Source of the DNA: Schwartzia succinivorans DSM 10502
GTDB taxonomy: Bacteria > Bacillota > Negativicutes > Selenomonadales > Selenomonadaceae
Direction of reading: 5' to 3'
DNA: 64,000 nt
Assembly (NCBI RefSeq): GCF_900129225.1
Contig: NZ_FQUG01000005.1
Span: forward strand, 62,001 to 126,000
Shown: one piece after another, positions 12,787-63,197 of the stretch
Numbering within the stretch: the stretch's first letter is position 1
Layout of the letters: each line of letters starts with the position of its first letter
Program-made: the position numbers and the translations under genes
The notes under the pieces: generated by a model
Database searches by the model: none
Seen by the model: the letters and a program-made list of their open reading frames with translations, nothing else
Told to the model about the DNA's origin: nothing

Positions 12787-12912
12787 GGGTAATTAGAGCT
12801 ATAACAGGGACAAATAGCCCAGTAGTTTATACGAGGTGTTGTTCCCCAAAAGAATTACCAAGGGGCTTGAACCGGCAGGTTAAAAAATACTCAGGGAAAG
12901 AGGTGCTTGGCT
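12787..12912 (+). other. Leader of the first tpsA gene with possible pseudoknot
   Basis: The untranslated leader contains a short hairpin CCCC (12844-12847) with GGGG (12862-12865). Its loop holds AATTACC (12853-12859), which is complementary to GGTAATT upstream (12788-12794); together these would make an H-type pseudoknot. The rest of the 12616-12739 gap is AT-rich with no gene. I could not match the leader to a known riboswitch class. The pairing is read from the sequence; any regulatory role is inference. Confidence 0.35.
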
Positions 12913-36848: not shown

Positions 36849-38177
36849 ATGGAATATCCCAGAGAAATATATTTAAGACGATTGAGTGACCGCAAACAAA
36901 ATGGCTTGATAAAAATAATAACCGGTGCCAGACGAGCAGGAAAATCTTACCTGCTAAATGAGTTATACTACAAACAACTGCTAAATACAGGTGTTCCCAG
37001 TAAAAATATCATTCGGTTTGCGTTTGATTCCGATGAAGATATAGATATGCTTGATTCATATTTTCCTGAAGAGCCGACGAAAATTAGAAAAAGTGCAGAA
37101 GTTTTTTTTGTGAATTCAAAGAAGTTTAGGGCATATATAAAAGATAGAACAAATGATACAGATAACTACTATTTGCTGCTTGACGAGGTTCAATTGCTCG
37201 ACAGTTTCATTGGAACGCTTAACGGATTCTTGAGACATACCAATTATGATATTTATGTTACAGGGTCAAATTCCAGATTTTTATCCTCAGATATAGCAAC
37301 AGAATTTAAAGGAAGGGGCACAATCGTACATGTTCTTCCGTTGGCATTTTCTGAATATATGCAAGGGACGGTTGCTGCACCTGAAAAAGCATGGAGAGAG
37401 TATGTAATAACCGGAGGAATTCCTCTTGTAGCGCAGATGAAAAGTGACGAAGAAAAAGCTGCTTATCTTAAGAACTTATGTGAAGAAACATATCTGAAGG
37501 ATATCATTGTGCATAACAATATTAGGAAAAAAGTTGAGCTTGCAGATACATTTGATATTTTGGCATCAATGATTGGCAGTCCGGTGAACACAAAAAAAAT
37601 TACGGACACATTCAAAAGTCTTTTGGATAAAAGTATCACTGCGAACACAATAGGCGATTATGTAGAGTATTTTCAGGATGCGTTTGTAATTTCAAAAGCA
37701 AAAAAATACAATATCAAGGGAAGAAAATATATAAGTGCACCGTTCAAACTTTACTTTGAAGATATCGGGGTAAGAAATGCACGGCTTAATTTTAGACAAA
37801 TTGAAGAGACACACATCATGGAAAACATTTTGTATAATGAGTTGCGATATCGTGGATTCAACGTAGATGTTGGTGAGGTTAATGTCAGTGAAAAAACAGA
37901 CCGCGTGGATGTAAATGGGAAGCATATCTATGCTCAGAAAGCACTTGAAGTCGATTTCGTAGCAACAAAAGGGAATCAGAAATTTTACATACAATCAGCA
38001 CTGTCAATGGAATCTGCTGAAAAACAAGCGCAGGAAAAGCGCAGCTTATATAACATAGATGATTCTTTCAAAAAGGTAGTGGTTGCTAAAACGGGGCTGA
38101 ATCCTGCATACGATGATAAAGGTGTTTTGGTTATTGATTTGTTTGATTTTTTGTTGGGCAAAGAAGGTCAATTATAA
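36849..38177 (+). CDS. ATP-binding protein with DUF4143-type C-terminus
   Basis: This 442-residue protein belongs to the large prokaryotic AAA_14/DUF4143 family. It has Walker A (ITGARRAGKSYLLN) and Walker B-like LLLDEVQLLD, followed by a sensor-like VTGSNSRFLSSDIA. The C-terminal half (about 200-440) has the DUF4143 pattern with FKLYFEDIGVRNARLNF and the DE-x-F-VA-like VDFVATKGNQKFYIQ typical of a restriction-endonuclease-like fold. The family is found beside toxin-antitoxin or defence genes and alone; its function is unknown. It is AT-rich compared with the genes before it, marking the start of the accessory region. Confidence 0.85.
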   Translation: MEYPREIYLRRLSDRKQNGLIKIITGARRAGKSYLLNELYYKQLLNTGVPSKNIIRFAFDSDEDIDMLDSYFPEEPTKIRKSAEVFFVNSKKFRAYIKDRTNDTDNYYLLLDEVQLLDSFIGTLNGFLRHTNYDIYVTGSNSRFLSSDIATEFKGRGTIVHVLPLAFSEYMQGTVAAPEKAWREYVITGGIPLVAQMKSDEEKAAYLKNLCEETYLKDIIVHNNIRKKVELADTFDILASMIGSPVNTKKITDTFKSLLDKSITANTIGDYVEYFQDAFVISKAKKYNIKGRKYISAPFKLYFEDIGVRNARLNFRQIEETHIMENILYNELRYRGFNVDVGEVNVSEKTDRVDVNGKHIYAQKALEVDFVATKGNQKFYIQSALSMESAEKQAQEKRSLYNIDDSFKKVVVAKTGLNPAYDDKGVLVIDLFDFLLGKEGQL

Positions 38178-41520: not shown

Positions 41521-41541
41521 TTCCTAAATTGAGGGATGAAA

Positions 41542-41811
41542 ATGAGCACAGACAAGAAAATGGTTCTTAGACAAATAGGCGCAAAAATCGCTTATTTCAG
41601 AACACTGGTAGGTATCAGCCAAAGAGAACTGGCTGCAAAAATAAATACAACTCAATCCACTATTTCCAAAGTCGAAAGCGGCAACTACAACGATAACCTG
41701 AGCATAGTAATGCTCACGGAAATTGCCGACGCATTGGAGGTAGATTTGTCCCTGCTGTTGGAATTCACAGGGTATGAGAAGGCCATGTGGGACAGGAAGA
41801 GTGGCGAGTGA
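41542..41811 (+). CDS. Small XRE-family transcriptional regulator
   Basis: The ATG at 41542 lies six bases after gaggg (an ATG at 41536 is too close). The 89-residue protein is a single helix-turn-helix domain: IGAKIAYFRTLVGISQRELA, INTTQSTISKVESG, then a C-terminal helix. It has the layout of a phage-repressor or antitoxin-type Xre protein. It lies about 530 bp upstream of the helicase operon, with a small Cys-rich gene and a broken copy of itself between, and could regulate that operon. Confidence 0.87.
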   Translation: MSTDKKMVLRQIGAKIAYFRTLVGISQRELAAKINTTQSTISKVESGNYNDNLSIVMLTEIADALEVDLSLLLEFTGYEKAMWDRKSGE

Positions 41812-42331: not shown

Positions 42332-45300
42332 ATGAGAAAAAATATGGCGATTGATGATGTTGAATATAACAGTGGGATAAGTTCGTATAAAGAAGAAACG
42401 AGACCATTATGCATTAAAACACATAGTAGACCATCTAATAATCGGTATGATCAGTTAGAATATAATAAGGGCAGTTTGTTAAAAAAATACCCAAGGTTTG
42501 GAATGAAAGATTTTGTTGCCACGGATTTTTTTGATGAAATCATCAAAAAAATATTTATAGACGGTATAGCTAAAGATACTTTTGTTCGTAATTATACCTT
42601 TGATGGCAGCAAGAGCCTCAAGTTAGCGATAAGGTACAAGCGCGGTCCACAGGATTATTTGTCCAATATTCTTCCCGATAATAAGACATTGTTATTTAAA
42701 GGATATGTGAGCGGCAATTACTTTATCGTAGATGGCGTGTCCGAGCAGTACAATGAAGAATTGCTGCCTTATGAAGTAGAATGTAGGATTGCTCGTTATG
42801 ATGATGAATCCAGAGTCAGCGGAGCAGGTGGAAATTTCCTTTATGATTTGGCTGATGCTGCAGCCTCGCTTAATGAACACACCAAGCAACGGCTTCAGGA
42901 ATGGAAGGATTACATCGAATGGCGGCGTACCATTGTTCAAAAGCGTATGCATGGCGTACGATATACCAGTGTAGAAAGTAAGGACGGCAATCTCGCCTTT
43001 ACGTTGCAATTCCCAGATAAAGATTCGTATGACGTAGAAGCCAAATGGCTGAAACGTGGAGAATTGGCAGCATACGACGGCAAGGAATATTCCGATGAGG
43101 ATGGCAATTTTGTGTATAACGAAGAACGCCATCGTTGGAATGAAAAATTTGAGCCGGTGGGGAGTCAGATACGTCGCCTTTCAAAGGAGGGGCGTGAGGT
43201 AAATGGTCATTATGAGATTGAATTAGTGTACGCCGTCCCCGATAATGATGAGATCGACGAAATGACGGATGAAGAGCGAGAGGAGTATGTGCAAAATCAA
43301 TTGCTCCCTCGTTATTCATCAATAGGTTTTCTTGCGCCGCTCGTTATCAAGGATTTGTCCCTCTTTAAGCGCCTGGACAGGGCTGTCTCTGATTTGCAGC
43401 AAGATCGCGACTGCCGTTCCCCCAATATGGCCATGTGGATTTTTGATGTGACGCGGGCAAGGCTGCCCCAGCCACAAGACCGGCAGGAGTGGGAAAAACG
43501 AGTAGGTGATAATTGGCTTAATACGAGCGTTGCCGATAATCCCGATCAACGCGAAGCCATATTCAAAATGCTGGAAGCCCCGGATCTTTGCTTAATACAA
43601 GGTCCTCCAGGAACCGGCAAGACTACTGTAATTGCTGAAGCCATCTATCAGCTTGCCCGTCAGGGAAACCGTGTTCTTCTGGCCTCCCAATCCCATGATG
43701 CCGTGGACAATGCGTTGGATAGACTGGCAAACCGTTCTGAGATCAGAGCTATACGTCTTAGTGAACGGGACAGGGATCGTGATGAAGAGCGTAGCAAATT
43801 CGGCTCATCAAAGGCACTTTCCACCTATTATGGTACTTTGCGCCAAGCGGTTACGGACAGATTTCTGGCACAGTGGAATAAAAACCGTCAAGATTATAAT
43901 GACTGCGAACGAGAGCTTCGTGATATTCAGCACGTCACCGCCGATTTGGAGTATTTGAACCATAAGCTTACGGAGCAAAGCCAAAATCTTGAAGATTACC
44001 GACGTAGTCTTTCCACAGCTGAAAGCACTCTTCAAAAGATGGTTGAGGAAAATAGCGAACATGAGAATACCAAACGCCAATATATGAATTTTAAAGGCAT
44101 GGCGGAGCGAAACGAAATCTCTGGAGGAGATTTCTATATCCCTAGTGCTATGGGGGACGTAGTTGCGCCCCTCTTTTGGCAACTTATTCGTAACGCTGCT
44201 GAGCAAGGTATTATGCTTGCATCTTCTGTGAGCGAGGACGTGATACGGCGCGAACCAACTTTGTCGATAAGTAGGATAGCCACGTCTTGTGGCGTGCTGT
44301 TCGCTTTACGTGAAAAATTGTCTGTCGCTGCCCAAAATGCAACTACTGATGCCGATATCGCCAAATTGAAAATGCAGGATATTGACGAACAGATAAGGAA
44401 GATAACAGATCAGCTGGCAGAGGTAGATGACGCAGGGATAAGGAAGGAGTTAAAAGATAAGCGCAACGGTCTCCGAGAGGAAAAGGAAAAACTCGGAGAA
44501 AGCGGCGCATTTGTGTTATCTCCTGAAGAGCTTACTTTATTTGACGAAGAGCGGAAGGCAAAAATTCAGTCTGCTGAAGGACAAGCTCAAATGGTCCAAT
44601 TGCTGTCCAACGTAGAGACAGCGTATCAAAACGCAATTCAAGAATCCTTAAGTCGTATGAGTGAGGTAATTGAATCCTATCAGCCTCAGGATGTCGAGCC
44701 CTTATTAGAGCAAGTAAAGTCACACAAGGGACAAATCAAACAGCTAAAGGAAGAAATGCAGCGTAAGCGAGAAGAAATCGCCGCTAAAGAAAAATTAGGC
44801 GAGACGCTCTCTGATAAATACAGATGTGAACGGAGTGAAATCGAATCCCACATTGAAGCAGAAATGAGTCGTCTGGATGAGGAGTGGAATCGTGATGCTT
44901 CCATTCGACAAGTTTGGCAGGGAACACTGGAAAGATTTGCCGAGCGGCTAGGCGATTCTAAAACTGCCAAGTACGACAAAGAATACCATGAGGACATTTA
45001 TATTTCCTCCTGCAACGTGGTGGGTATTACATGCACGGCAAACATGCGGGATTTGGATGAGAAATTCCCGGACTTTGATGTGGTTATCATTGACGAGGTC
45101 AGTAAGGCGACTCCACCGGAACTCTTGCCACCACTCATGCGGGCAAGAAAAACGATTTTGGTGGGCGACCACAGACAATTGCCGCCAGTGTTCAATGAGT
45201 ATGAAAAATCCTATAATGAACTATTGGAAGAAATAAACGCCGAAACAGATGAAGATGATGATAATGCCGCAGAAATGGTGCTTCGCGAAGAGGATTTGAA

Positions 45301-46159
45301 CAAGTATCGCACGATGGTTACTTCCTCTTTGTTCCGTGAATATTTCGAGCAAGGTGACGAGCGGATTAAGCATTCTCTGCTTACCCAGTATCGTATGCAC
45401 TCGGATATCCAGAAAGTCATCAACCGCTTTTATGATGGGAAACTGGAAAGCGGTGTTATGGAAGACGAAAACAGGACAAAAGCCCACGGGCTAAAAGTTA
45501 CGACTGATAAAGGCGAAAGTTTCCTCCGTCCCGACAGCCATGCTTATTGGGTGGATTCCTCCAGGTTGCAAGGAAAGCTGATGGAGCAGAGTAGATATCA
45601 AGGCAGCACTTCGCTCCATAACATTTTCGAGAGGCACATCATCTTGTCTATGCTCTCAAAAATTAATGATGCGTATGCCGCCATGGGGCAATCTGGCGTA
45701 ACTGTAGGTGTGATTTCCTTCTACGGTTCCCAAGTAGGAGATCTTAGAAAAGCTGTCAAGGATATGCGTAGTCGTGGCAAACTCAAGGCATTAAAAGTTG
45801 ATGTCAATACAGTAGACCGTTTCCAAGGCAAGGAAAAGCAGATAATTATCACTAGTTTGGTTTGCAATACCAAACGTGGCAATGCCAGCCGCCATGTGGC
45901 AGCTTTTGAGCGAATTAATGTTGCTTTTTCCCGTGCGCAAAATTTGCTAATTATTGTGGGAGCCAGAGAACTCTACAGCGGTTTAGCTGTTCCTATTCCC
46001 CGCATGGACACTGGAGAGATTAGGAGTGCTCGTATTTACCAAAACATAATTGATGACATAGCACGCAACGGTGCGTTGATAGCAGGAGAAACACTAATTG
46101 CTTCAGAGGATGCACAGGCGATTATGGAAGAATACGATAAGGAGGCGAAGGAGCGGTGA
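42332..46159 (+). CDS. UPF1/DNA2-like superfamily 1 helicase
   Basis: This 1275-residue protein may start at ATG 42332 or, less strained, at 42344. An unfamiliar N-terminal region (about 1-400) precedes the helicase core. The motifs are: Walker A LIQGPPGTGKTTVIAEA (about 424-438), VLLASQSHDAVDNALDRL (Ia), a coiled-coil-rich insert (about 500-860), DEVSKATPPELLP (II, DExx), GDHRQLPPVF (III), LLTQYRMHSDI (IV), VNTVDRFQGKEKQIIITSLV (V) and NVAFSRAQNLLIIVG (VI). This is a UPF1-like SF1B enzyme that would translocate on RNA or DNA. Its stop overlaps the start of the PIN gene (4 bp), so the products are translationally coupled. The long insert is unusual. Confidence 0.9.
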   Translation: MRKNMAIDDVEYNSGISSYKEETRPLCIKTHSRPSNNRYDQLEYNKGSLLKKYPRFGMKDFVATDFFDEIIKKIFIDGIAKDTFVRNYTFDGSKSLKLAIRYKRGPQDYLSNILPDNKTLLFKGYVSGNYFIVDGVSEQYNEELLPYEVECRIARYDDESRVSGAGGNFLYDLADAAASLNEHTKQRLQEWKDYIEWRRTIVQKRMHGVRYTSVESKDGNLAFTLQFPDKDSYDVEAKWLKRGELAAYDGKEYSDEDGNFVYNEERHRWNEKFEPVGSQIRRLSKEGREVNGHYEIELVYAVPDNDEIDEMTDEEREEYVQNQLLPRYSSIGFLAPLVIKDLSLFKRLDRAVSDLQQDRDCRSPNMAMWIFDVTRARLPQPQDRQEWEKRVGDNWLNTSVADNPDQREAIFKMLEAPDLCLIQGPPGTGKTTVIAEAIYQLARQGNRVLLASQSHDAVDNALDRLANRSEIRAIRLSERDRDRDEERSKFGSSKALSTYYGTLRQAVTDRFLAQWNKNRQDYNDCERELRDIQHVTADLEYLNHKLTEQSQNLEDYRRSLSTAESTLQKMVEENSEHENTKRQYMNFKGMAERNEISGGDFYIPSAMGDVVAPLFWQLIRNAAEQGIMLASSVSEDVIRREPTLSISRIATSCGVLFALREKLSVAAQNATTDADIAKLKMQDIDEQIRKITDQLAEVDDAGIRKELKDKRNGLREEKEKLGESGAFVLSPEELTLFDEERKAKIQSAEGQAQMVQLLSNVETAYQNAIQESLSRMSEVIESYQPQDVEPLLEQVKSHKGQIKQLKEEMQRKREEIAAKEKLGETLSDKYRCERSEIESHIEAEMSRLDEEWNRDASIRQVWQGTLERFAERLGDSKTAKYDKEYHEDIYISSCNVVGITCTANMRDLDEKFPDFDVVIIDEVSKATPPELLPPLMRARKTILVGDHRQLPPVFNEYEKSYNELLEEINAETDEDDDNAAEMVLREEDLNKYRTMVTSSLFREYFEQGDERIKHSLLTQYRMHSDIQKVINRFYDGKLESGVMEDENRTKAHGLKVTTDKGESFLRPDSHAYWVDSSRLQGKLMEQSRYQGSTSLHNIFERHIILSMLSKINDAYAAMGQSGVTVGVISFYGSQVGDLRKAVKDMRSRGKLKALKVDVNTVDRFQGKEKQIIITSLVCNTKRGNASRHVAAFERINVAFSRAQNLLIIVGARELYSGLAVPIPRMDTGEIRSARIYQNIIDDIARNGALIAGETLIASEDAQAIMEEYDKEAKER

Positions 46160-48180
46160 ATTTAGGTAAAGCTAGGATAGCTTATCCCTTCGTGGAATAT
46201 TCGGTTCAAGTGACGCACCACACAGAGCGCAAGTCCACGGTGATGGAATGGATGCTTTTAGAAATCGCTCAAAAGGTCGAGTCATATCCTGATTATGCGG
46301 CAATCCCCTTGGAAAACATTCTAACATCAATTTTCTCGGTAGCGGATGGTAACATACTCCTTCGTCAAGTTCTAATAGACCTTGTGGATGTCAATGCACT
46401 GGAACAAATTCCAGGTTTTAGCGACAAAAGCGAATGGAATCAGCTTAGATGCGGTGATTTGCGGCTGACTGATGACGGTCGCCGCTTGCAGCAGGAGGGC
46501 AAACTTCCGGCAAAGTCACAAACTCAAAAATTATCTGTTGTTTATGATGTGGTCAATAATCGTCTTGTAAACAGCAGTAAAGGTATGGTGGACAACACAG
46601 TGAGTCCCAAAGCTAAAGATATCGGTGAAGGAAATATGCCTGGTTTTCCTAGTTCCTTAATCGCTTTACGAATTGAAGAATGGCAAGCGGATGGCCAAAA
46701 TGCCCCTTCGTGGCTACAACGAAACTCTCGAATCGACAATATTGTCCCGGAAGGGGATGCAAAAATAAAGTGGCAAAATATCAGCCACGAGATTTCCATT
46801 GATAGCAGAGGTAATTTGAGCCTTTTGGGTGCGCCAAATGATGAAATTGCTGAAGTCGTTCTGAAAGATACGGATTTAGGGACGATGCCAGACTATGAAT
46901 TGCCGCTAATTGACGTTGATACTCTTCTGAGCAAGCGAAAGTGTGCAATTTATGATAAGACTTCGGATACTATTGAGAGTTATGCGGCAAAAGCTAACAT
47001 CTTCGTCGTTGCTCCGCAGTTTTCTAACATCATAGATGAAAAAAATAATAAGGTATGCTTGCTGTTGGGGCAGCTGTCGTTTGGGTTCGATGCTACGGGA
47101 AAAAATACAGTAATAAGCCTCCCAGATGCTTTCCCGGAGGGGCTGTGCTATCAGGACATCAGTCGTAGCGTGTATGCCACCGCCGTTGAAGGACATATTG
47201 GCGCAGTTTCTCGTTTGATACCCTATATATACGAGGATGTGAGCGATTTCTCCGTATTCGTCATAAGTCTGGTAAAAAAGTACTATATGCTGGATCGACG
47301 TATGTTGAAGCTTTTGAATCTTGTCGGAGAGGAGAAATATCGAGAGTTTTATACTGCCGATTACATACGGGATTTGCTAAATTCGGCAGAGATACAACAA
47401 CTTACCCCAATAGATAAAATATTGGACAGGCTCTTGAAGCTCGATGTCAAATTGCAAAATGTGTTGGTGGATGTGCCAATCTCCGCAAGCTCTGAAACTA
47501 TCCGTTCTGCACTTTTAGGCAAGGATGTAGAAATTCTTGGGGATGTTCGCGAGTGGACGGCGCAATGGCGAGAGGCATTGGAATCTCTCAAAACTAAGAC
47601 GGACGTGGATGTGAAATCCATGGATTGGCAAGGTACCAACTTTGGTCTATCACTGGAGCGTATGGAGCAAGCGGCAGATGCCGTGGCCGTTTTCTACGAC
47701 GATTCCGCAAGTCGCTATAGTAAGGTGTATGTTTTTGATACTTGTTCTCTGATGCACTATCCCGATGTGCTGGACGATTTTGTGAGCAATAAGGCTTTAG
47801 TAATCATCCCAAAGCAGGTCTTAGTAGAATTGGACGGTCTTAAGACAGCTGATGATGAAAATAGGCGATACCAAGCGCGGCAAGCCATACGAAAAATCCA
47901 TGAATACGGCGATGAGCCTTGGTTGAAGCAAAACGAGGATAATTATCTGGAACTTCTTTCGGATAGTTTCAGGGAATCAGGTATAAAAGATTTTTACATC
48001 CTGTCCGTGGCGGTCAAATATCGCGTAAAGAACCCTGTCATGGTGACGGACGATGAGAACTTCCAGAATTTCGCCCAATCGGAAGGAGTGGAGACAATCA
48101 CGGCGCATAATCTCCATGAAAAACTGACAAATGAGGTTTCTTCCAAGGGCAAGGGAAAAAATAAAAAGAAGAGGAAATAG
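46156..48180 (+). CDS. PIN-domain protein with large N-terminal region
   Basis: The start is GTG at 46156 (gaaggagcgGTGA), overlapping the helicase stop. The 674-residue product has a large N-terminal part (about 1-510) I do not recognise and a C-terminal PIN nuclease domain (about 516-650): VYVFDTCSLMHYP (first Asp), KQVLVELDGLK (Glu), GIKDFYILSVAVKY (Asp) and VMVTDDENFQNF (Asp), followed by a Lys-rich tail. The DTCSL motif matches that of the PIN-kinase at 2360. It is likely an RNA endonuclease working with the adjacent helicase. Confidence 0.82.
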   Translation: MNLGKARIAYPFVEYSVQVTHHTERKSTVMEWMLLEIAQKVESYPDYAAIPLENILTSIFSVADGNILLRQVLIDLVDVNALEQIPGFSDKSEWNQLRCGDLRLTDDGRRLQQEGKLPAKSQTQKLSVVYDVVNNRLVNSSKGMVDNTVSPKAKDIGEGNMPGFPSSLIALRIEEWQADGQNAPSWLQRNSRIDNIVPEGDAKIKWQNISHEISIDSRGNLSLLGAPNDEIAEVVLKDTDLGTMPDYELPLIDVDTLLSKRKCAIYDKTSDTIESYAAKANIFVVAPQFSNIIDEKNNKVCLLLGQLSFGFDATGKNTVISLPDAFPEGLCYQDISRSVYATAVEGHIGAVSRLIPYIYEDVSDFSVFVISLVKKYYMLDRRMLKLLNLVGEEKYREFYTADYIRDLLNSAEIQQLTPIDKILDRLLKLDVKLQNVLVDVPISASSETIRSALLGKDVEILGDVREWTAQWREALESLKTKTDVDVKSMDWQGTNFGLSLERMEQAADAVAVFYDDSASRYSKVYVFDTCSLMHYPDVLDDFVSNKALVIIPKQVLVELDGLKTADDENRRYQARQAIRKIHEYGDEPWLKQNEDNYLELLSDSFRESGIKDFYILSVAVKYRVKNPVMVTDDENFQNFAQSEGVETITAHNLHEKLTNEVSSKGKGKNKKKRK

Positions 48181-48191
48181 GAGGTGGCTAC

Positions 48192-49307
48192 ATGAGTCAA
48201 GAAGCAGAGCTTGTATTTGCCTTGGAGCAGAGAAGACGGGAGGAACTTTTCAGAGCGCGAGTCAGCAATAAGACAAGAGAATTTTATATGCGCTACCAGG
48301 ATCAATATAACGACATGTGTTCCCAAGGCTACCGTGATTATATCCCTGAGGAAATGAGTCGTTTGGAACATGATTTGGATACCATCGGAAGCCTGCTTTC
48401 AAGCAATCCGGTGGCTGCCAGAGAGGTCAGTCAAGAGGTAGGCAGCTACATCCACAGCCTGTGGGGACTTGGCAGTGAGGCTCGGCAAGTTTTTCAAGAA
48501 TCAGCGCGTATTGCTCGTCTTGAGGCCAAGCGTGAAAAAAAGGCGGCGCAAAATTCAGTAATGTCCCGGTATTATGATGTAATCGGCAGTCTGGATTCTA
48601 TAGTGGCTAATTTTGCTGCGGCTGATTTGAACGACATCAAGAATGCCATTTCATCCGGTACTGTTGCCACTGCGCAAGATGTTGAAACAAAATTGGCGAT
48701 GGTTATTAAGAAGGCGAAAACAGAAGCAGCTAATTGGAAAGCGCAGAAGCAAAAGGAGCAAGCTAAACAAGCAGTAAACGAGCAGATAGAAGATGTAAAG
48801 AAGTCTATAGTAGCCGAGAAATTTGAAGATAGTTCCAAATCAAAGGCCCTACTGGATAAATTGGAAGAAATTAAATCCAAGGCAGTTGCGGGCACTGTCA
48901 GCGTCAAGGAGGTTCAAGAGCAGATTCAAGCCGTGACAGAAGAAACAGATGAAACCTTGGTTGGTGAAGAAGTGCGTCGTGAAACGGTCAAGGCCGTTTA
49001 TAAATGGTTTAACGACCATGACTTCACCCTCAGTAAACCGAAGCTGATTGACGGTGCTGTGGTCATAACGGCGCAAAGGCCATCAGGCAACAAAGCTCAA
49101 TTCAAGCTGACACTAGATAATAAGATGTGGTATCGTTTGGATGGATACGAGGGACAAAGCTGTTTGAAGGACATTTCGTCAGCAAAGGCAGATTGGGAGT
49201 CAGTCTATGGGATCAAACTATCGGATGAAGTTGTCAAGTGGCAGAATCCTGACCGTATTTTGCGGCGCCAAGGACAAACGGAATCCAACATAGGAGGGAA
49301 AATGTAA
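48192..49307 (+). CDS. Coiled-coil protein of the helicase/AAA+ operon
   Basis: This 371-residue protein starts at ATG behind ggaggtggctac. A long helical region (about 100-270) is rich in Ala, Lys and Glu (REKKAAQNSVM, KKAKTEAANWKAQKQKEQAK) and is probably coiled coil. The C-terminal part (about 275-371) is a small alpha/beta domain (AVYKWFNDHDFTLSKPKLI, VVITAQRPSGNKAQFKLTLD). No enzyme motif is visible. Its stop overlaps the AAA+ ATPase start by one base. It may link the helicase/PIN module to the AAA+ ring. Confidence 0.6.
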   Translation: MSQEAELVFALEQRRREELFRARVSNKTREFYMRYQDQYNDMCSQGYRDYIPEEMSRLEHDLDTIGSLLSSNPVAAREVSQEVGSYIHSLWGLGSEARQVFQESARIARLEAKREKKAAQNSVMSRYYDVIGSLDSIVANFAAADLNDIKNAISSGTVATAQDVETKLAMVIKKAKTEAANWKAQKQKEQAKQAVNEQIEDVKKSIVAEKFEDSSKSKALLDKLEEIKSKAVAGTVSVKEVQEQIQAVTEETDETLVGEEVRRETVKAVYKWFNDHDFTLSKPKLIDGAVVITAQRPSGNKAQFKLTLDNKMWYRLDGYEGQSCLKDISSAKADWESVYGIKLSDEVVKWQNPDRILRRQGQTESNIGGKM

Positions 49308-51145
49308 TGAGCGATATGTGGCTTGAACACCTTGAGCGGGAGATGAAACTTCGTGGAGCCGTGATTCTCTTTGGCAATACCAATGACATTATCCTTAATC
49401 CTCAGAAGGCTGGGCAGTATACTTCTGTGGTGGATTGTGTCCGGGACATAGCTTTTAAGAGCGGTTACGAGCGTGTAATTATATGGAATCGAGCGGAGGG
49501 GGGCATTTCTTGGGAACGTGGAGCATCTTATTCCTCTGGCCTTGAAGGTACGGAAGTCGAGGAGCCAGAGGGCGGTGACGAATACAATATGGGTCCTGGA
49601 GGCGATGAGCATCGGGCAGGTACAAAAAAATACGCTGATCCTAAAGAGTTTTTTCCCTGGCTTCGGTCATTGCTGGAAAATAAAAGTGGCGGCACAGCGG
49701 CCATCGTGGATTACTCAGATTATCTTTTCGGGGATGGGCGTAGTCTATCGGACGAAGAGCGCAATAATATAACCAACATGATGATTGCCATTGCCAAAAG
49801 CCAGGATTACGGCCTCAATTTCGTGGAGAACAATGGTAATTTACTGGTGCTCATTGCTAAGACCACGGCTATGCTCCCGCCTTCCGTCTATGTGGACAAT
49901 CCCTTGGTGGCGACAATCAACGTCCCCCTGCCGGCAAGAGATGAACGAGCGAAGTATGTGGATAAGGACATCAATCTTCTGAAGTTATCACCAGGTATAG
50001 AGGATAAAAGCGTCAAGGATAATTTTATTGACGCTCTTGATGGCTTCAGTCTGAAAAATATCGCCCAAATTATCAAGCTATCCAATCAAGCGCCGGAACG
50101 TATGAATTTCGAGAAACTCATAAACCTTTATCGCTACGGAGAAAAGAAAAGTCCCTGGGAAGAGTTGTCCTACGAGAAACTCAAAACTGCCAAGGAAACT
50201 TTGGGACAGAGAGTCAAGGGACAAGACGAGGCTGTACAAAAAGTACGGGATGTTATTATCCGTGCCTATACAGGATTTGCAGGGCTTCAACATTCCGCAA
50301 AGCAAAAGAAACCCAAGGGAGCACTCTTCTTTGTGGGACCCACCGGTGTGGGCAAAACGGAACTGGCAAAGTCGCTGGCAGAATTTATCTTTGGTGATGA
50401 AAGCGCATACCGCAGGTTTGACATGAGCGAATACGCTCATGAGCAAAGTGACCAGCGTTTGGTTGGCGCGCCTCCTGGTTACGTTGGTTATGAGAAAGGG
50501 GGCGAGCTTACCAATGCCGTCAAAGAAAAGCCCTTCTGCGTCTTGCTCTTTGATGAGATTGAAAAGGCTCATGGACGTATCATGGACAAGTTTCTGCAAA
50601 TTTTAGAGGACGGGCGCCTAACTGATGGCAAAGGTGAAACGGTCTATTTTTCCGAGACATTTATCATCTTTACTTCGAATATCGGTGCAGCTGGAGCAGA
50701 TATTGCTTTGAATGCCGAGCAAACACGACAATACTTTATCAGTGAAGTAAAAAAACACTTTGTTGAAACTCTAAAACGCCCAGAGATTCTAAATCGTATT
50801 GGCGATGCCAACATTGTGCCATTCAATTTTATCCAGAATGATGAAGTGCTTGTAGCTATTGGGAAATCCAAATTTGCCCCCATAAAATCCTTTATCAAGG
50901 AGCGTTACAAGGCAGATATTCGATTTAATGACGAAGAGGCCGTGTTTGCAGCATTGGGGAGGAGCGCAGACAAAGCAAATGGTGGACGTGGCATGTTGAA
51001 CGTCATGGAGCAGAAACTTATCAACCCATTGTCGGATTTTGTATTCGAGAAAATAGAGAGCCTTGCGCGTGGCGGAAGGACAATTCAAGTTGATATCGAC
51101 GAAACCCCGAGTGGGGAAGTCGAGCTTGATTTTCATCTGGACTAG
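49307..51145 (+). CDS. ClpB/ClpA-D2-like AAA+ ATPase with a diverged N-terminal AAA-like half
   Basis: This 612-residue protein's N-terminal half (about 1-275) resembles an AAA+ domain that has lost Walker A: LRGAVILFGNTNDIIL lacks GxxGxGK. The C-terminal half is a functional ClpA/B D2-type module: KGQDEAVQKVRDVI, Walker A GPTGVGKTELAKSL (about 345), pore loop GAPPGYVGYEKGG, Walker B CVLLFDEIEKAH, TSNIGAAG and RPEILNRIGD with the arginine finger region. It lacks the ClpB N-domain and M-domain. It probably forms a hexameric ATPase that unfolds or remodels a partner, perhaps the helicase/PIN complex. Confidence 0.87.
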   Translation: MSDMWLEHLEREMKLRGAVILFGNTNDIILNPQKAGQYTSVVDCVRDIAFKSGYERVIIWNRAEGGISWERGASYSSGLEGTEVEEPEGGDEYNMGPGGDEHRAGTKKYADPKEFFPWLRSLLENKSGGTAAIVDYSDYLFGDGRSLSDEERNNITNMMIAIAKSQDYGLNFVENNGNLLVLIAKTTAMLPPSVYVDNPLVATINVPLPARDERAKYVDKDINLLKLSPGIEDKSVKDNFIDALDGFSLKNIAQIIKLSNQAPERMNFEKLINLYRYGEKKSPWEELSYEKLKTAKETLGQRVKGQDEAVQKVRDVIIRAYTGFAGLQHSAKQKKPKGALFFVGPTGVGKTELAKSLAEFIFGDESAYRRFDMSEYAHEQSDQRLVGAPPGYVGYEKGGELTNAVKEKPFCVLLFDEIEKAHGRIMDKFLQILEDGRLTDGKGETVYFSETFIIFTSNIGAAGADIALNAEQTRQYFISEVKKHFVETLKRPEILNRIGDANIVPFNFIQNDEVLVAIGKSKFAPIKSFIKERYKADIRFNDEEAVFAALGRSADKANGGRGMLNVMEQKLINPLSDFVFEKIESLARGGRTIQVDIDETPSGEVELDFHLD

Positions 51146-51150
51146 ATGTT

Positions 51151-51723
51151 ATGGCGTACTTGAATTTAGCGGCGATTCGAACATGTACCGAGGCCGAGGG
51201 GCCAGGCAAACGTTTCGCCATATGGAGCCAGGGGTGCCTGCGTCGCTGCCCAGGTTGTTGTAATCCTCATATGCAGCCAATGGAGCGTAAGCACCTCGTA
51301 AAAGTTGATAAATTGATGGAACTGATTCTGAAGAGCAAGGCAGAGGAAGACATTGAGGGTGTGTCTTTTATAGGTGGCGAGCCGGTACTGCAAGCAGAAG
51401 GCTTTGCTGAACTTGCTCAGTATTGCCAAAAAGTTGGGTTGTCAGTATTGCTTTTTACTGGATACTACTACGAAGACTTATTGGCAATGGAGGATGACGA
51501 TATTGATAGACTGCTAAGAAATACTGATATTTTGGTTGATGGTGAATTTATTGAATCGTTACGTGATCAAGAGCGTGATTGGGTTGGATCTGAAAATCAG
51601 CACGTTATATTTTTGAGCGACCGCTATAATGCTGGGATAGAATTTGAGCATGGTGTACATAACACGGAGATACGGATATCGGATGGTGGCGTTGGGATAA
51701 ACGGATGGCCGTTAGAGATATAA
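51151..51723 (+). CDS. NrdG/PflA-like radical SAM activating protein
   Basis: This 190-residue protein has CLRRCPGCCNP, so C29, C33 and C36 (CxxxCxxC) bind the 4Fe-4S cluster that cleaves SAM. The flanking GPGKRFAIWSQG and VSFIGGEPVLQAEGF (GGEP) are as in NrdG and other activating enzymes. It starts five bases after the AAA+ stop, making it the fifth gene of the operon. Glycyl-radical enzymes are not present in the window, so the target is unknown. Its presence at the end of a helicase/PIN/AAA+ operon is unusual and suggests radical-based modification or activation of a partner. Confidence 0.85.
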   Translation: MAYLNLAAIRTCTEAEGPGKRFAIWSQGCLRRCPGCCNPHMQPMERKHLVKVDKLMELILKSKAEEDIEGVSFIGGEPVLQAEGFAELAQYCQKVGLSVLLFTGYYYEDLLAMEDDDIDRLLRNTDILVDGEFIESLRDQERDWVGSENQHVIFLSDRYNAGIEFEHGVHNTEIRISDGGVGINGWPLEI

Positions 51724-51868: not shown

Positions 51869-51976
51869 ATGATGGAAAAAGAAAACATCAAGGCAGAGGA
51901 TATTCAAGAGGAAAACCGTACGGATATGGAATTGGAAAGCATCCTTAATATGTGCTCTTGGGGCGAATTTAACTAA
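51869..51976 (+). CDS. Candidate RiPP precursor peptide
   Basis: The SD agaggagga lies seven bases before ATG 51869. The 35-residue peptide has an acidic/polar leader (MMEKENIKAEDIQEE) and ends with NMCSWGEFN. The single Cys and Trp plus the Glu, Phe and Asn at the tip look like a modified core; radical-SAM enzymes often link Trp or Phe side chains to neighbouring residues in such cores. Three radical-SAM genes follow in the same direction. No homology was checked. The role is inferred from size, SD and context only. Confidence 0.5.
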   Translation: MMEKENIKAEDIQEENRTDMELESILNMCSWGEFN

Positions 51977-52219
51977 TTATTGGTTGAAGGATAAACAGGT
52001 ATAATCACTTTGTAGGCTGATATGGTGCTTAGGTTTGGTGTCATGCTTGCATAACGAACCACAATATTGTGCCTGACAAGACCTTATTTGACTCTAAATC
52101 AAAGCACCAATATCTCCTTAAATTTAACTTTGAAAGTAAATGCCTGATTTTTTTCTTAATCTGTGTCGTATTAAATTCAAGTATGCTCAACTATCTAGAA
52201 AAAGAGAGGAGAATACAAT
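51977..52219 (+). other. AT-rich spacer upstream of the first radical-SAM gene
   Basis: The 243-bp gap has no gene that I trust. It holds a possible promoter (ttgaaggataaacaggtataat region at 51982-52004) and ends with the SD agagaggag for the TTG start at 52220. A hairpin was not clear. Confidence 0.3.
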
Positions 52220-53215
52220 TTGCAGGTTTATATTTTGCTTACGCAAAAATGTAATCTTCATTGCTCTATGTGTATACGCGGTAAACAAACTGGGAAAGAT
52301 ATCTCTTTTTCTGCCATTAAATCTATAACTGAACGAGGAGATTTCTATGAACAGGATGTAATTCTGACTGGGGGAGAACCAACATATTACGACAAACTTA
52401 CCGATGTTGCAAAATTAATTAGTCAATCGGCAAATCTTGTTATTGTCACTACAAATGGGACAAATGCTAATGCGATAAAAGACTTGCGAGAGATCAAAAA
52501 TTTAATGGTTCAAGTATCTCTTGATGGAGATCAAATAACACATAATAATATTCGAGGCTCAGGAACATTTGAAAGGGTTAAAAAGACAATCGATGTATTG
52601 GAAAAATATGATATGGCATATACTGTAGCTTCGGTTGTTAATAAATCAAATACACATGGCGTGTTTTGTTTAGGCAAAATGTTAGAAAAACAGCCTAAAA
52701 TGAAATATTGGAGTGTTTCTTATGAAATGCCATTTGGAAGCTCCGGTATTGATAAATTAATGACGGCGGCAGAATGGAATAATTTTGTAGATAATTTGAT
52801 AGACAATGTCAGAGTGCGAATAAAAATAAAAAAATTATTCCCTTTGGATCTTTATGAAAAACACTTGGATATAATAAGCAGGATACCTCTGAAAGAAAGA
52901 AGCTTTAATTGTGGTAGCGGTAAAGATAAAATATATGTATATCCCGATTTATCGGTATATCCTTGTACTTGCTTAGAGGATTTTTGTGTAGGAAATTTGG
53001 ACAATCAATCATTGAAACAGATATTAGAAGGGGATATGATAAAGGTTTTTCAAAATTATACAGTAAATCCTGGTACCATATGTTCATCTTGCTCCTATTT
53101 AGATTTATGTCGCGGTGGCTGTATAGGTATGTCGGTACATTATGCCGGTGGATTGGGAAATGGAGATATACGTTGCCCGTATATGAAAACCAATTCAAAT
53201 AAGGAATGTGAATGA
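52220..53215 (+). CDS. Radical SAM/SPASM peptide-modifying enzyme
   Basis: The TTG start is eight bases after agagaggag (331 residues). The radical SAM cluster motif is QKCNLHCSMCIRG, followed by VILTGGEPTYYDK (GGEP) and VTTNGTNANA. The C-terminal SPASM-type cysteines are CGSGKDKIYVYPD, YPCTCLEDFC, and CSSCSYLDLCRGGC, which would hold one or two auxiliary 4Fe-4S clusters. SPASM radical-SAM enzymes typically modify peptides or activate sulfatases. It is 243 bp downstream of the candidate precursor and overlaps the next gene by 4 bp. Composition is strongly AT-rich. Confidence 0.9.
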   Translation: MQVYILLTQKCNLHCSMCIRGKQTGKDISFSAIKSITERGDFYEQDVILTGGEPTYYDKLTDVAKLISQSANLVIVTTNGTNANAIKDLREIKNLMVQVSLDGDQITHNNIRGSGTFERVKKTIDVLEKYDMAYTVASVVNKSNTHGVFCLGKMLEKQPKMKYWSVSYEMPFGSSGIDKLMTAAEWNNFVDNLIDNVRVRIKIKKLFPLDLYEKHLDIISRIPLKERSFNCGSGKDKIYVYPDLSVYPCTCLEDFCVGNLDNQSLKQILEGDMIKVFQNYTVNPGTICSSCSYLDLCRGGCIGMSVHYAGGLGNGDIRCPYMKTNSNKECE

Positions 53216-54105
53216 AAAATATTTTTTATTTTAATATAACCTATGGTTGCAATAGCAACTGTGTGTTCTGTTATTCTCATAACACAAAACACGACGGTAT
53301 AAGCCATCATGATTTATCCGTAGAAACGATGATGTCTTATTTGAAAAAAAACAATATAAAAGAGTATGATCGCATAATTATCAATGGTGGAGAACCATTG
53401 TTGCATCCAGACATAATAAGGATGATTCAAAACCTTAAAGATTTCAATTGCGAAATTCTGATATATACTAACGGTCGTTTGCTGGAAAAATTGCCACTCA
53501 ATATTTTTAACGACAATTTTAGGATTATTATTCCTTGGCATGGAGCTGAAAAAGCACATGACATGGTAACTGGTATAAACGGTAGCTACCATGAAACCAT
53601 GCGGGGAATTAATCATATGCTAAATGGTTGTGCACATATAGAACTCAAAATTATTGTTAATCGGAATATGGTTTCTAAAAGGGATATTGAATCTTCTATC
53701 GTTGCATTGGATCATATTCCAATTAAATCATTTCATTCTGTTCATTTAACTAAAGTTGACGATACCATCATATCTAAACTCAACAAATATCCCCATATAA
53801 GTCATGCAGATGCAGCTATGCCAACATTGAATTTTTTTAATTATTGCGCATCACGGGTGAATTCAATCAAAATATTTGATACCTGTGTAGCAAGTATGCC
53901 ATTGCCTACAAATGAATTACCGGCACTAAAGGAAGAATATGCAGTAATTTTTAAAGACTGGGATCACAATTGGCAAATTCCGTTAAAAGAAAAACATCCT
54001 CATTGCTTAATGAACTGCTCACATAAGAGTTATTGCATATCGGCAGTAAATCATTATACTGCTCTCGAGTATAAAAGTGGTAATTGGCGAGAATTTTGGG
54101 AGTGA
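53212..54105 (+). CDS. Radical SAM protein 2 of the peptide locus
   Basis: This 297-residue protein starts at ATG overlapping the previous stop (GAATGAA). The cluster motif is TYGCNSNCVFCYSH, then IINGGEPLLHPDI and IYTNGRLLE. The C-terminus has only scattered cysteines (FDTCVAS, HCLMNCSHKSYCIS), so an auxiliary cluster is possible but not canonical. It may carry out a second modification or work as a partner of the first enzyme. AT-rich like its neighbours. Confidence 0.85.
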   Translation: MKNIFYFNITYGCNSNCVFCYSHNTKHDGISHHDLSVETMMSYLKKNNIKEYDRIIINGGEPLLHPDIIRMIQNLKDFNCEILIYTNGRLLEKLPLNIFNDNFRIIIPWHGAEKAHDMVTGINGSYHETMRGINHMLNGCAHIELKIIVNRNMVSKRDIESSIVALDHIPIKSFHSVHLTKVDDTIISKLNKYPHISHADAAMPTLNFFNYCASRVNSIKIFDTCVASMPLPTNELPALKEEYAVIFKDWDHNWQIPLKEKHPHCLMNCSHKSYCISAVNHYTALEYKSGNWREFWE

Positions 54106-54110
54106 TTACA

Positions 54111-55229
54111 ATGGAAGAAAACAATGAGATTGCCATAACAATTAAACCCACAATGTCGTGCAATATGAGATGTCGCCATTGTTTTAATGCTGATTTACGA
54201 AAGCAAAGAGATTCTCTTCCATTGTCAACTGCGGTGCGATTCTTGGAATTAGCTGCGGATTTTTCTCGAGATGTAAAAGTGACGCTTCATGGGGGTGAAC
54301 CATCTCTGATGGGAGCTGCATACTATCGTGAATTATTCCGAAACGAACAGCGAATTGCTGCTGAGAAGGGCGTAGTATTTGCTAATCGCTTTACTACAAA
54401 CGCATTGCTATTAAAAGGCGAACTATTAGACGTTTTGTTGGCTAATGATGCACGATTAAAAATATCATTCGATGGGCCATTCAATGATGATCTTCGTGAA
54501 AAAACTGAAATAGTAAAGAAAAACATTTCAGAGGCAAGAGTGCGCGGAGCGAAAATTATAATACTTTGTACGCTTGCTCGAAATGCCAGCAACCATCTGC
54601 TGGAATTGTATAAATGGTTTAACGAATGGGGTCTAGATATAAAATTACTTCCAATTGAGCCGAGAGGTTTCGCATTGTTCAATAACAATCTTTTGCTGCA
54701 GGAAGATGAGTTTGCTAATGCATTAAAAACCGCATACAACTATTGGTTACACGACACTAAGTGCCAAATATCTTGTACAACATTTGAAGATTTTGCAATG
54801 ATAAGATCCACGCAACAGTACAAACCTTTTTGGTTCAGAAGAGAAATTGCATTAAATCCCGATGGGCACATCCATCCATTTGGTAGACCAAATGATATCC
54901 GCTATGATTTGGGCAGACCTGAAGATATAAACAGCTTGGAGGATTGTTTTCAATCCGATGTATATAAGAACTTGATGAATTTTTTGAAGGGAAAAAGAGC
55001 AGTTTATTGCGAAGCATGCCCGGCTTGCGGCTCATGTAACGGGGTCTGTCTTTTTATGGGGTATATGTATACTGATAGTGAAGCTTTGCTTCAGCGAAGC
55101 TGTCGTATATCGAGAAAGATCTTTGATATTGCATTAGAATCTAACGATATTGCATACAATGATTGGCTCAGTGGAAAGCAAAAGTCGCTCAATCCTCGTG
55201 CAATACAAGCATTGCTCTATGACCGTTAA
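54111..55229 (+). CDS. Radical SAM/SPASM enzyme 3 of the peptide locus
   Basis: I use ATG 54111 (SD gggag), 372 residues, five bases after the previous stop. Cluster motif SCNMRCRHCFNAD, then VTLHGGEPSLMG. SPASM-type tail: CEACPACGSCNGVCLF and a further Cys in LLQRSC. The sequence is similar to the anaerobic sulfatase-maturing/peptide-modifying branch. It is less AT-rich than the two genes before it. The three radical-SAM genes together suggest that one peptide receives several modifications. Confidence 0.88.
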   Translation: MEENNEIAITIKPTMSCNMRCRHCFNADLRKQRDSLPLSTAVRFLELAADFSRDVKVTLHGGEPSLMGAAYYRELFRNEQRIAAEKGVVFANRFTTNALLLKGELLDVLLANDARLKISFDGPFNDDLREKTEIVKKNISEARVRGAKIIILCTLARNASNHLLELYKWFNEWGLDIKLLPIEPRGFALFNNNLLLQEDEFANALKTAYNYWLHDTKCQISCTTFEDFAMIRSTQQYKPFWFRREIALNPDGHIHPFGRPNDIRYDLGRPEDINSLEDCFQSDVYKNLMNFLKGKRAVYCEACPACGSCNGVCLFMGYMYTDSEALLQRSCRISRKIFDIALESNDIAYNDWLSGKQKSLNPRAIQALLYDR

Positions 55230-61372: not shown

Positions 61373-61517
61373 ATTTTACATAGGTCTTACGACACGGCTA
61401 AATGCACTTTTAGTAAATTTGGACGTTTCAAATGAAATCTTTTTGAATGAACGCGTGTGAATAGCTTGAAATAGACCTACAGATAAATAGGCAGTATATA
61501 TGAAGGGATTATTTAAA

Positions 61518-63197
61518 ATGACAGGACGTTACAAGATGCAGGCTCTTGCCGCCTGCGCGCTGACGATGTTTGCGGGGATGCAGCATGGTCTGGCGGCTCC
61601 GGCAGGTCTGAACATACCGGATGCCGGTTCGGTTTCGGCAAATGTTGACCAGGAGCGTGAATGGGTACCGAAGGCAGACGACCCGGATATTCAGGTGGAT
61701 CTGGGACGGGTTGAGGATGGAGCTTCGGACATAAGAATTTATCTTAATGAGCTTCGCTTTACAGGGGAGGATGTGCCTTTCTCCACGAAGGAGCTCAAGA
61801 AAATTGTTGCGGATGATGTGGGCAGGGAGGTTACCTTTGCGGATTTGCAGAGGTCCTGCCGCAAGATTTCGGATTTTCTTCATACAAAGGGATATATGAC
61901 GGCAATCGCCTATTTGCCGACGCAGGATATTGTTGACGGTGTCGTTACAATAGATATTCTCATAGGCAAATACGGGACGGTTGCGTACGATAACACATCG
62001 GAGCTGACTACTGGACGGGCGGACGGTCTTGCTCACGCGGCACGCACGGGAAAAATCATCAGGAAGAACGCTCTTGACCGTTCGATTCTTACGCTTAATG
62101 ATGTGCCTGGCATACGTTCTCAGGTATTTATTTCACCCAGCAAAACGCCGAACCGCGCTGATGCGCTTTTCAAGATTATAACAACGGAGCGCTGCGGCGG
62201 AATCACCTATGTGGACAACTACGGCAGCCGCTTCACGGGACGCTGGCGTATCGGCGCAGGCTATCACTGGAACAATCTCAGCCACGTTGGCGACCAGCTG
62301 AATATCGCGTATCTTCAGAGCTTCGGGCGCGGGCTGCAGAGCTATGATGTGCGGTATGAGCTTCCTGTGGGAAACAACGGAACATTTGCAGGTATTGAGT
62401 TCATGCGCACGGACTACACGCTGGGGGAGCAGTTTTCTTCCATTGACGCTTACGGTACATCCCATGGCTGGAAAATTTATTCAAGAACGCCGTGGAAGCG
62501 TACTCTGAATAACAATCTTTACTGGCGCATGGAGGCTTCAACCACGACACTCAGCGACCGTATGAGAGAATACGGTACTGATTCGGAGAAGCACGGCTGG
62601 GCGCTGCGCTTCGGACTCGACGGTGACTCACGAAATGAGCGCTCCGCGTCAAGCTATAAGCTGATGCACACAGTCGGGCATATAAATCCGCGCAATGACC
62701 TTGCAAGAAGCTCTATGAGGCTTGCGGATACCGAGGGGGGCTTTCAGAAGACAACGCTGGATTTGTATCATATCCAGAAGTTTTCCAACCGTCTTTCCAT
62801 GCATGCTTCCTTCGTAGGGCAGTATGCATGGTCGAATCTTGATTCCTCGGAGAAATTTTATACCGCAGGCTATCACGGAGTGAGGGCGTTTCCGCAGGGC
62901 GAGTCGGGAGGCGATCACGGCTTCGTGGCATCGGCGGAGCTTCGCTGGGCGACGGGAAATCCTCACTGGCAGCTGGCGGCATTCTATGACTTTGGCTGGT
63001 CGAAAAACAGAAATGCAAGCGTCGCAGGCTCGGATTCCCGAACCCTTGCAGGCGCGGGAATAGGAATTATCTGGGCAGACAACAAAAATTCATACGCACG
63101 GATTGATTATGCGTTTCCGCTGACTGACCACATGTCCAATACCTACGGTCACGATATAGGGGGAACGGTTTGGTTCCAGTTTGTGCAGAAAATCTGA
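61518..63197 (+). CDS. TpsB outer-membrane transporter (FhaC/ShlB type)
   Basis: I choose ATG 61518 (559 residues), nine bases after gaaggga; an ATG at 61500 lacks an SD. A signal peptide ends near GLAA-PA. Residues about 70-190 contain a POTRA domain region (IRIYLNELRFTGEDVPFSTK, LHTKGYMTAIAYLP). The C-terminal half is a 16-strand ShlB-type barrel with alternating aromatic strands; the L6 motif appears as GYHGVRAFPQGESGGDHG, where the usual VRGF/Y reads VRAF. The chain ends in VWFQFVQKI. It exports TpsA proteins across the outer membrane. Only one tpsB is seen in the window, against three tpsA genes, so it may serve all three. Confidence 0.92.
   Translation: MTGRYKMQALAACALTMFAGMQHGLAAPAGLNIPDAGSVSANVDQEREWVPKADDPDIQVDLGRVEDGASDIRIYLNELRFTGEDVPFSTKELKKIVADDVGREVTFADLQRSCRKISDFLHTKGYMTAIAYLPTQDIVDGVVTIDILIGKYGTVAYDNTSELTTGRADGLAHAARTGKIIRKNALDRSILTLNDVPGIRSQVFISPSKTPNRADALFKIITTERCGGITYVDNYGSRFTGRWRIGAGYHWNNLSHVGDQLNIAYLQSFGRGLQSYDVRYELPVGNNGTFAGIEFMRTDYTLGEQFSSIDAYGTSHGWKIYSRTPWKRTLNNNLYWRMEASTTTLSDRMREYGTDSEKHGWALRFGLDGDSRNERSASSYKLMHTVGHINPRNDLARSSMRLADTEGGFQKTTLDLYHIQKFSNRLSMHASFVGQYAWSNLDSSEKFYTAGYHGVRAFPQGESGGDHGFVASAELRWATGNPHWQLAAFYDFGWSKNRNASVAGSDSRTLAGAGIGIIWADNKNSYARIDYAFPLTDHMSNTYGHDIGGTVWFQFVQKI

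Follow-up and report, generated by a model that had tools for sequence, protein, structure and literature searches.

Does a run of five closely spaced genes in Schwartzia succinivorans DSM 10502 constitute a single system and, if so, what could a helicase, a nuclease, a coiled-coil protein, an AAA+ protein and a radical SAM protein accomplish together? The genes, here called g1 to g5, are located in the window, that is, the whole stretch of 64,000 nucleotides that was analysed (Table 1). The preliminary description had presented five co-directional open reading frames at 42332-51723 with tight spacing; the coordinates, the overlaps (4 bp for g1/g2 and 1 bp for g3/g4) and the gaps (11 bp for g2-g3 and 5 bp for g4-g5) were all confirmed, and the domain types it had proposed agreed with the matches to Pfam, NCBIfam and PADLOC. 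We propose, with a probability of approximately 0.55, that this cassette is a horizontally mobile, immune-type five-gene system; the immune-type reading builds on the families to which the helicase and the PIN domain belong, on the relation to the Mokosh system and on the neighbouring genes, and both the defence role and the biochemical steps are predictions from sequence comparison.

Table 1. Genes of the five-gene cassette, with positions in the window
Gene	Position	Strand	Product length and start codon	Predicted product
g1	42332..46159	+	1275 aa, ATG start	UPF1/IGHMBP2-like SF1 helicase (Pfam AAA_11/AAA_12)
g2	46156..48180	+	674 aa, GTG start	winged-helix-like N terminus, middle domain, C-terminal PIN_4
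g3	48192..49307	+	371 aa	long helical coiled-coil protein, small C-terminal domain
g4	49307..51145	+	612 aa	AAA+ (AAA_2), ClpB/ClpA-like
g5	51151..51723	+	190 aa	NrdG-like radical SAM (Fer4_12)

The count of consensus promoters and terminators at the cassette was not above that in shuffled sequence. An XRE-type HTH regulator is encoded upstream of g1 (window 41536-41811), and none was seen upstream of the G052 copy of the cassette. At a distance of 4 kb upstream, an AAA_14/DUF4143 protein (window 36849-38177) matched the candidate defence model PDC-S01 (E=9e-99), and the window also encodes two TPS-domain exoproteins and a ShlB/FhaC-type transporter of two-partner secretion (12907-15891, 16184-21478 and 61500-63197). 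Downstream of the cassette (51869-55229), a 35-aa ORF, MMEKENIKAEDIQEENRTDMELESILNMCSWGEFN, with a strong ribosome-binding site lies ahead of three radical SAM genes that start at 52220, 53212 and 54084, two of the three having SPASM-type matches. Together they probably form a RiPP unit of precursor and maturases that is distinct from the cassette; the radical SAM genes (52220-55229) were rejected as further components because they are not conserved with it and sit behind the small putative peptide gene.

Conserved co-occurrence of the five families, which the preliminary description had named as the point to check, was observed without exception. All five genes were present in identical order and on the same strand in 27/27 assessable loci, counted as independent loci long enough to hold five genes, and these loci spanned seven phyla; two loci at contig ends, L045 and L051, were left out, the latter on a Verrucomicrobia contig that would make an eighth phylum. 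The order was kept even at about 20-50% protein identity between loci, and short g1/g2 and g3/g4 overlaps were seen again in many of them. Chance clustering does not account for the cassette. Mean pairwise identities were 36% for g1, 23% for g2, 34% for g3, 54% for g4 and 50% for g5, and the distance matrices of the five proteins correlated with one another (Spearman 0.79-0.93, 351 pairs; values inflated by shared ancestry and given without a null). Searches led by g3 and by g4 returned complete cassettes only, bar one marginal partial g3 match (E=8e-4). Two further genomes of the same family carry the cassette, L022 at 77-86% identity and L021 at 22-51%, and Phascolarctobacterium and Veillonella tobetsuensis have it as well. 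When 84,980 genomes were scanned with the N-terminal half of g4, it turned up in Treponema, Brachyspira, Slackia, Synergistaceae, Fibrobacter, Lachnospiraceae, Ruminococcus, Monoglobus, Tenebrionibacter and Planctomycetota. In V. tobetsuensis (L029:1200-5399) and one Brachyspira MAG (L047:2233-6254), two ORFs take the place of a single g1, reflecting decay, a programmed frameshift or a sequence error.

The first two genes carry the clearest functional signals. g1 matched UPF1/IGHMBP2-type models in addition to the Pfam families, and its SF1 motifs, Walker A GPPGTGKT (residues 424-431), DEVSKATP (921-928), QYRMH (1019-1023) and VAFSRAQ (1197-1203), were kept in alignment across 27/27 loci. DNA2, SMUBP-2 and UPF1 were its nearest solved structures. 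UPF1-like SF1 helicases act on DNA too, not on RNA alone; given this, and given DNA2 as the best solved match, we regard RNA as the probable rather than the settled target, a direction suggested by the closeness of g1 to UPF1 and of the PIN domain to SMG6 and Nmd4. The PIN_4 domain of g2 occupies residues 525-649 (Pfam). Such a C-terminal domain was present in 14 of 22 g2 proteins, a Ppx-GppA domain (PF02541) in one and a PLD domain in none. In the PIN-bearing proteins, acidic residues aligned at DT..LM, VxxELD, D..ILS and T/SxD (Asp/Glu), so placed that the predicted active-site acidic residues of a PIN_4 RNase are present. The AlphaFold model of g2 (mean pLDDT 87.7) gave seven fold matches with E<0.001. 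These included the SMG6/EST1A and Nmd4 PIN domains; SMG5 matched at 0.0075, and the PIN structures of these three proteins were the closest to the PIN module.

The PIN domain is not universal: g2 lacks it in Treponema and in L021, L039 and L043, and the cassette tree implies at least four losses. The Planctomycetota g2 (L050:5788-8880) ends in what reads as a Ppx/GppA-like domain in place of PIN. Because PIN is missing in at least four lineages and a Ppx/GppA-like domain occurs in one, PIN cleavage cannot be the sole possible output. Moreover, PIN is optional and g3 to g5 are never absent, which suggests that the core consists of the helicase, the g2 N-terminal region and the g3-g5 triad, with a swappable output domain.

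The preliminary description could name no characterised system with this content. This held for the whole set, since no complete PADLOC v2.0.0 system (2023) covers g1 to g5, but not for its first two members: g1 and g2 appear distantly related to MkoA and MkoB of Mokosh type I, a system described as degrading viral transcripts (PMC11291487), and this part of the cassette would therefore not be new. Both systems have a UPF1-like helicase followed by a protein with a putative winged-helix-like part and a C-terminal nuclease, and homology is detectable, if distant, for both genes. It might be argued from this that the cassette is a Mokosh subtype whose defence engine would consist solely of the helicase and the winged-helix/nuclease protein, with g3 to g5 as regulatory add-ons. 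MkoA is indeed the best PADLOC match of g1 (E=1e-103, residues 176-1245), real Mokosh loci share the gene order, and 11 of 22 g2 members matched the MkoB model in their N-terminal region with E-values no higher than 0.1, the lowest being 3e-7. However, the MkoA match is limited to profile positions 418-1099 of 1112, and real MkoA proteins scored approximately 190-197 bits on the g1 model, compared with at least 467 bits for cassette members. MkoA has an N-terminal Ser/Thr kinase, visible in L069-L071 as kinase-like N termini (HRDLKPSNIM...IDFGISK), and MkoB a PLD domain, whereas g1 gave no Pfam match to a kinase domain and g2 carries a PIN module, a Ppx/GppA-like module or none. Compared with real MkoB N-termini, those of g2 were collinear but weakly similar (profile-profile E=0.006), and g3, g4 and g5 were all missing from the four Mokosh loci examined, in contrast to the cassette, where the three additional genes are always there. 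Plain Mokosh membership was rejected on the missing kinase and PLD domains, and we consider the subtype explanation unlikely.

Other systems resemble the cassette in part. CoCoNuT types II/III share a UPF1-like helicase, coiled-coil components and predicted RNA targeting, and some have accessory AAA+ proteins in which only the C-terminal ATPase is active (PMC11090510). Their core, however, is a McrBC GTPase with a nuclease, which nothing in g1 to g5 matches, and the passages of their description that were consulted mention no NrdG-like radical SAM protein. In Hachiman (HamAB), a sensor helicase restrains an effector nuclease, but the nuclease belongs to another family, DNA is sensed, and the described pair comes without AAA+, coiled-coil or radical SAM genes (PMC12278908). 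UPF1-SMG6 and Upf1-Nmd4 belong to the helicase and PIN families found among the nearest solved structures to g1 and g2; the cassette has no counterparts of SMG1 kinase, UPF2 or UPF3 of eukaryotic NMD, and the likeness is one of parts and does not amount to demonstrated common descent as a pair. In the literature searched, chiefly papers outside subscription journals, no description of the five-gene set was found, and a newer one may exist. As a set, g3 to g5 match no described defence system, and we found no precedent for this accessory triad.

Of the triad, g3 is the least familiar. Its model (mean pLDDT 81, lower confidence at the C-terminal end) predicts a long helical bundle followed by a small beta-beta-beta-beta-alpha domain, and the alignments revealed a conserved C-terminal patch, D317-x-Y319-x-G321-x-x-C324. 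Residues E259, R262, F278, G299, Y319, G321, C324, Y339, S344, N352 and P353 were kept across the 27 loci. g3 had no significant Pfam match and no match in PADLOC v2.0.0, and its PDB fold search gave no confident match (none at E<0.04). In g4, residues 290-599 correspond to a ClpB second-ring-like ATPase with the motifs kept (Walker A GPTGVGKT, Walker B LLFDE, pore loop GYVG and RPEILNR), and the N-terminal half is conserved but degenerate, without Walker motifs. A full ClpB/ClpA disaggregase was rejected for g4, as only the second-ring-like module matched (255 bits, with 1232 needed); its PADLOC matches, PDC-M37B and DolB, are generic relatives only.

How the cassette is distributed bears on whether it serves the host as a housekeeping function. 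It was present in 5/380 genomes of the class, and in a sample of its own phylum an intact g3 was found in 1/398 genomes, the own genome, with one other, partial match (E=8e-4). A search of E. coli for the cassette returned clpB as the sole match. In a plasmid search, g3 led to cassettes carried by Polaromonas, Photobacterium, Moellerella, Acinetobacter and Leisingera plasmids; an NDM-named plasmid of Acinetobacter and conjugative plasmids of Moellerella are among them. In the tree of g1, g3, g4 and g5, the Negativicutes occupied four separate positions, Veillonella grouped with Lachnospiraceae, and the actinobacterium Slackia was nested among Bacillota; this discordance with host taxonomy indicates horizontal transfer of the cassette. 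The cassette is rare and has been transferred horizontally as one unit. A phage-borne origin was rejected, as the N-terminal half of g4 had no relatives in 2.9 million viral contigs and g3 had none in the phage collection. At the Tenebrionibacter copy, the search for att sites gave no convincing repeats and no tRNA.

The genes flanking the relatives' cassettes include several known defence genes. AbiD adjoins the cassette in four Treponema loci, CARF/Csx1-type proteins occur in three cassette flanks (the one in L037 confirmed at E=4e-83), AbiU adjoins the Planctomycetota cassette, the NADAR-DarT1 antitoxin adjoins the Acinetobacter cassette, and a CRISPR array of 13 repeats (L021:8981-9907) begins 63 bp past g5. 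Several copies adjoin ordinary genes, a point against the immune-type reading. The preliminary description had suggested looking for a position in defence islands, and several copies do adjoin known defence genes or sit on plasmids; this proximity is an association, given as examples without a matched background rate and not as an enrichment figure. By the Treponema cassettes, a conserved block of a CARF/Csx1-type protein, an unknown 250-aa protein and AbiD was seen (L037:12456-14852, with equivalents in L030 and L038). Two unrelated hosts encode proteins with an LRAT domain in the flanks of the cassette (L029:12470-12973 and L055:3936-4601). VakA/thymidylate-kinase-like genes lie right downstream in four unrelated hosts (L028:13464-14045, L034:12579-13151, L040:12509-13069 and L055:14877-15398); in L034 and L055 a radical SAM gene lies next to them, and L028 has an nrdG-nrdD pair there.

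Two further explanations can be weighed against this distribution. The component types would fit RNA decay combined with protein remodelling, and the cassette could be a stress or quality-control system for RNA or ribosome surveillance, with UPF1-SMG6-decay-like logic and a ClpB-type remodeller, rather than an immune system; a patchy, rare and plasmid-borne cassette with a host-incongruent tree and defence neighbours is, however, unlike housekeeping genes, and we judge this explanation distinctly improbable. We give a comparably low rating to the idea that the cassette serves mobile elements as a weapon or for their maintenance, acting in plasmid competition or addiction and not in host immunity. 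Plasmid copies exist; repABC lies close to one of them, and integrases or an ArdA antirestriction gene lie close to others. However, many chromosomal copies lie outside obvious elements and no toxin-antitoxin layout was seen; such a role and defence are also not mutually exclusive.

The radical SAM protein g5 is the component with which the preliminary description could associate no obvious partner enzyme, and this still holds. Its CxxxCxxC cluster motif and GGEP were kept in 27/27 loci, in agreement with the radical SAM signature, and in the window copy the motifs read CxxxCxxCC (C29, C33, C36 and C37), GGEP, GSxNQ and NGWP. The first three are NrdG-like, whereas the fourth Cys and the C-terminal NGWP tail are additional to NrdG, and the cassette has no NrdD. 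Against the NrdG model TIGR02491, g5 scored 99.5 bits (E=1.6e-28), under the curated cut-off of 126.1 bits; a separate NrdG elsewhere in the own genome scored 158.6 bits, above it. The product of NrdG-type glycyl-radical chemistry would be oxygen-labile, and cassette plasmids occur in bacteria usually classed as aerobic, which weighs against the immune-type reading as well. The cut-off, the second NrdG and the copies in such bacteria led us to reject g5 as a plain NrdD glycyl-radical activase. Prokaryotic viperins (pVip) are radical SAM enzymes that act in defence, but the match of g5 to pVip in PADLOC was weak (E=1e-5) and that to NrdG far better; pVip-like genes are present as separate neighbours in a few loci. 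That g5 has a role in nucleotide metabolism, for instance by activating NrdD or making a modified nucleotide, such that the system alters the nucleotide pool, is very unlikely: the GSxNQ motif, the nrdG-nrdD-kinase genes after the cassette in L028 and the kinase-like genes of the other three hosts would favour it, but most loci lack such neighbours, and the three observations that speak against an activase apply here too.

Returning to the immune-type reading, we propose the following mechanism. By analogy with Mokosh and Hachiman, g1 and g2 would assemble into a complex of sensor helicase and effector. In it, g1 would load onto single-stranded nucleic acid of foreign origin, most likely transcripts of a phage or plasmid, and the winged-helix-like N-terminal part of g2 would link the helicase to the C-terminal PIN RNase, leading to RNA cutting. 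For this half we draw on homology and on the precedents of Hachiman, CoCoNuT and Mokosh. More tentatively, from their conserved parts and invariant co-occurrence, g3 to g5 may act as a licensing or reset arm: the g4 AAA+ ring would thread or remodel a protein client, with g3 as its coiled-coil adaptor, and g5 might modify a protein partner by an NrdG-like radical reaction, the DxYxGxxC patch of g3 being the first candidate target; arming or disarming of the helicase-nuclease would thereby be confined to the right state. In its most specific form, which we regard as speculative and doubtful, g5 would post-translationally modify a dedicated partner (candidate: g3 DxYxGxxC), and this mark would allow the AAA+ ring to arm a UPF1/SMG6-like helicase-RNase, by which transcripts of the invader would be destroyed.

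If the cassette does provide immunity, it would be a five-component system with an obligatory NrdG-type radical enzyme, unlike any described system compared here, and if the modification reading is true, a protein-modifying radical enzyme would be the built-in switch of a defence complex. The presence of the cassette on plasmids of culturable bacteria makes it experimentally accessible now. The prokaryotic pair of a UPF1-like helicase and an SMG6-like PIN protein would also resemble the core of nonsense-mediated decay, and it bears on the proposal that genetic conflict gave rise to mRNA surveillance (PMC5031192).
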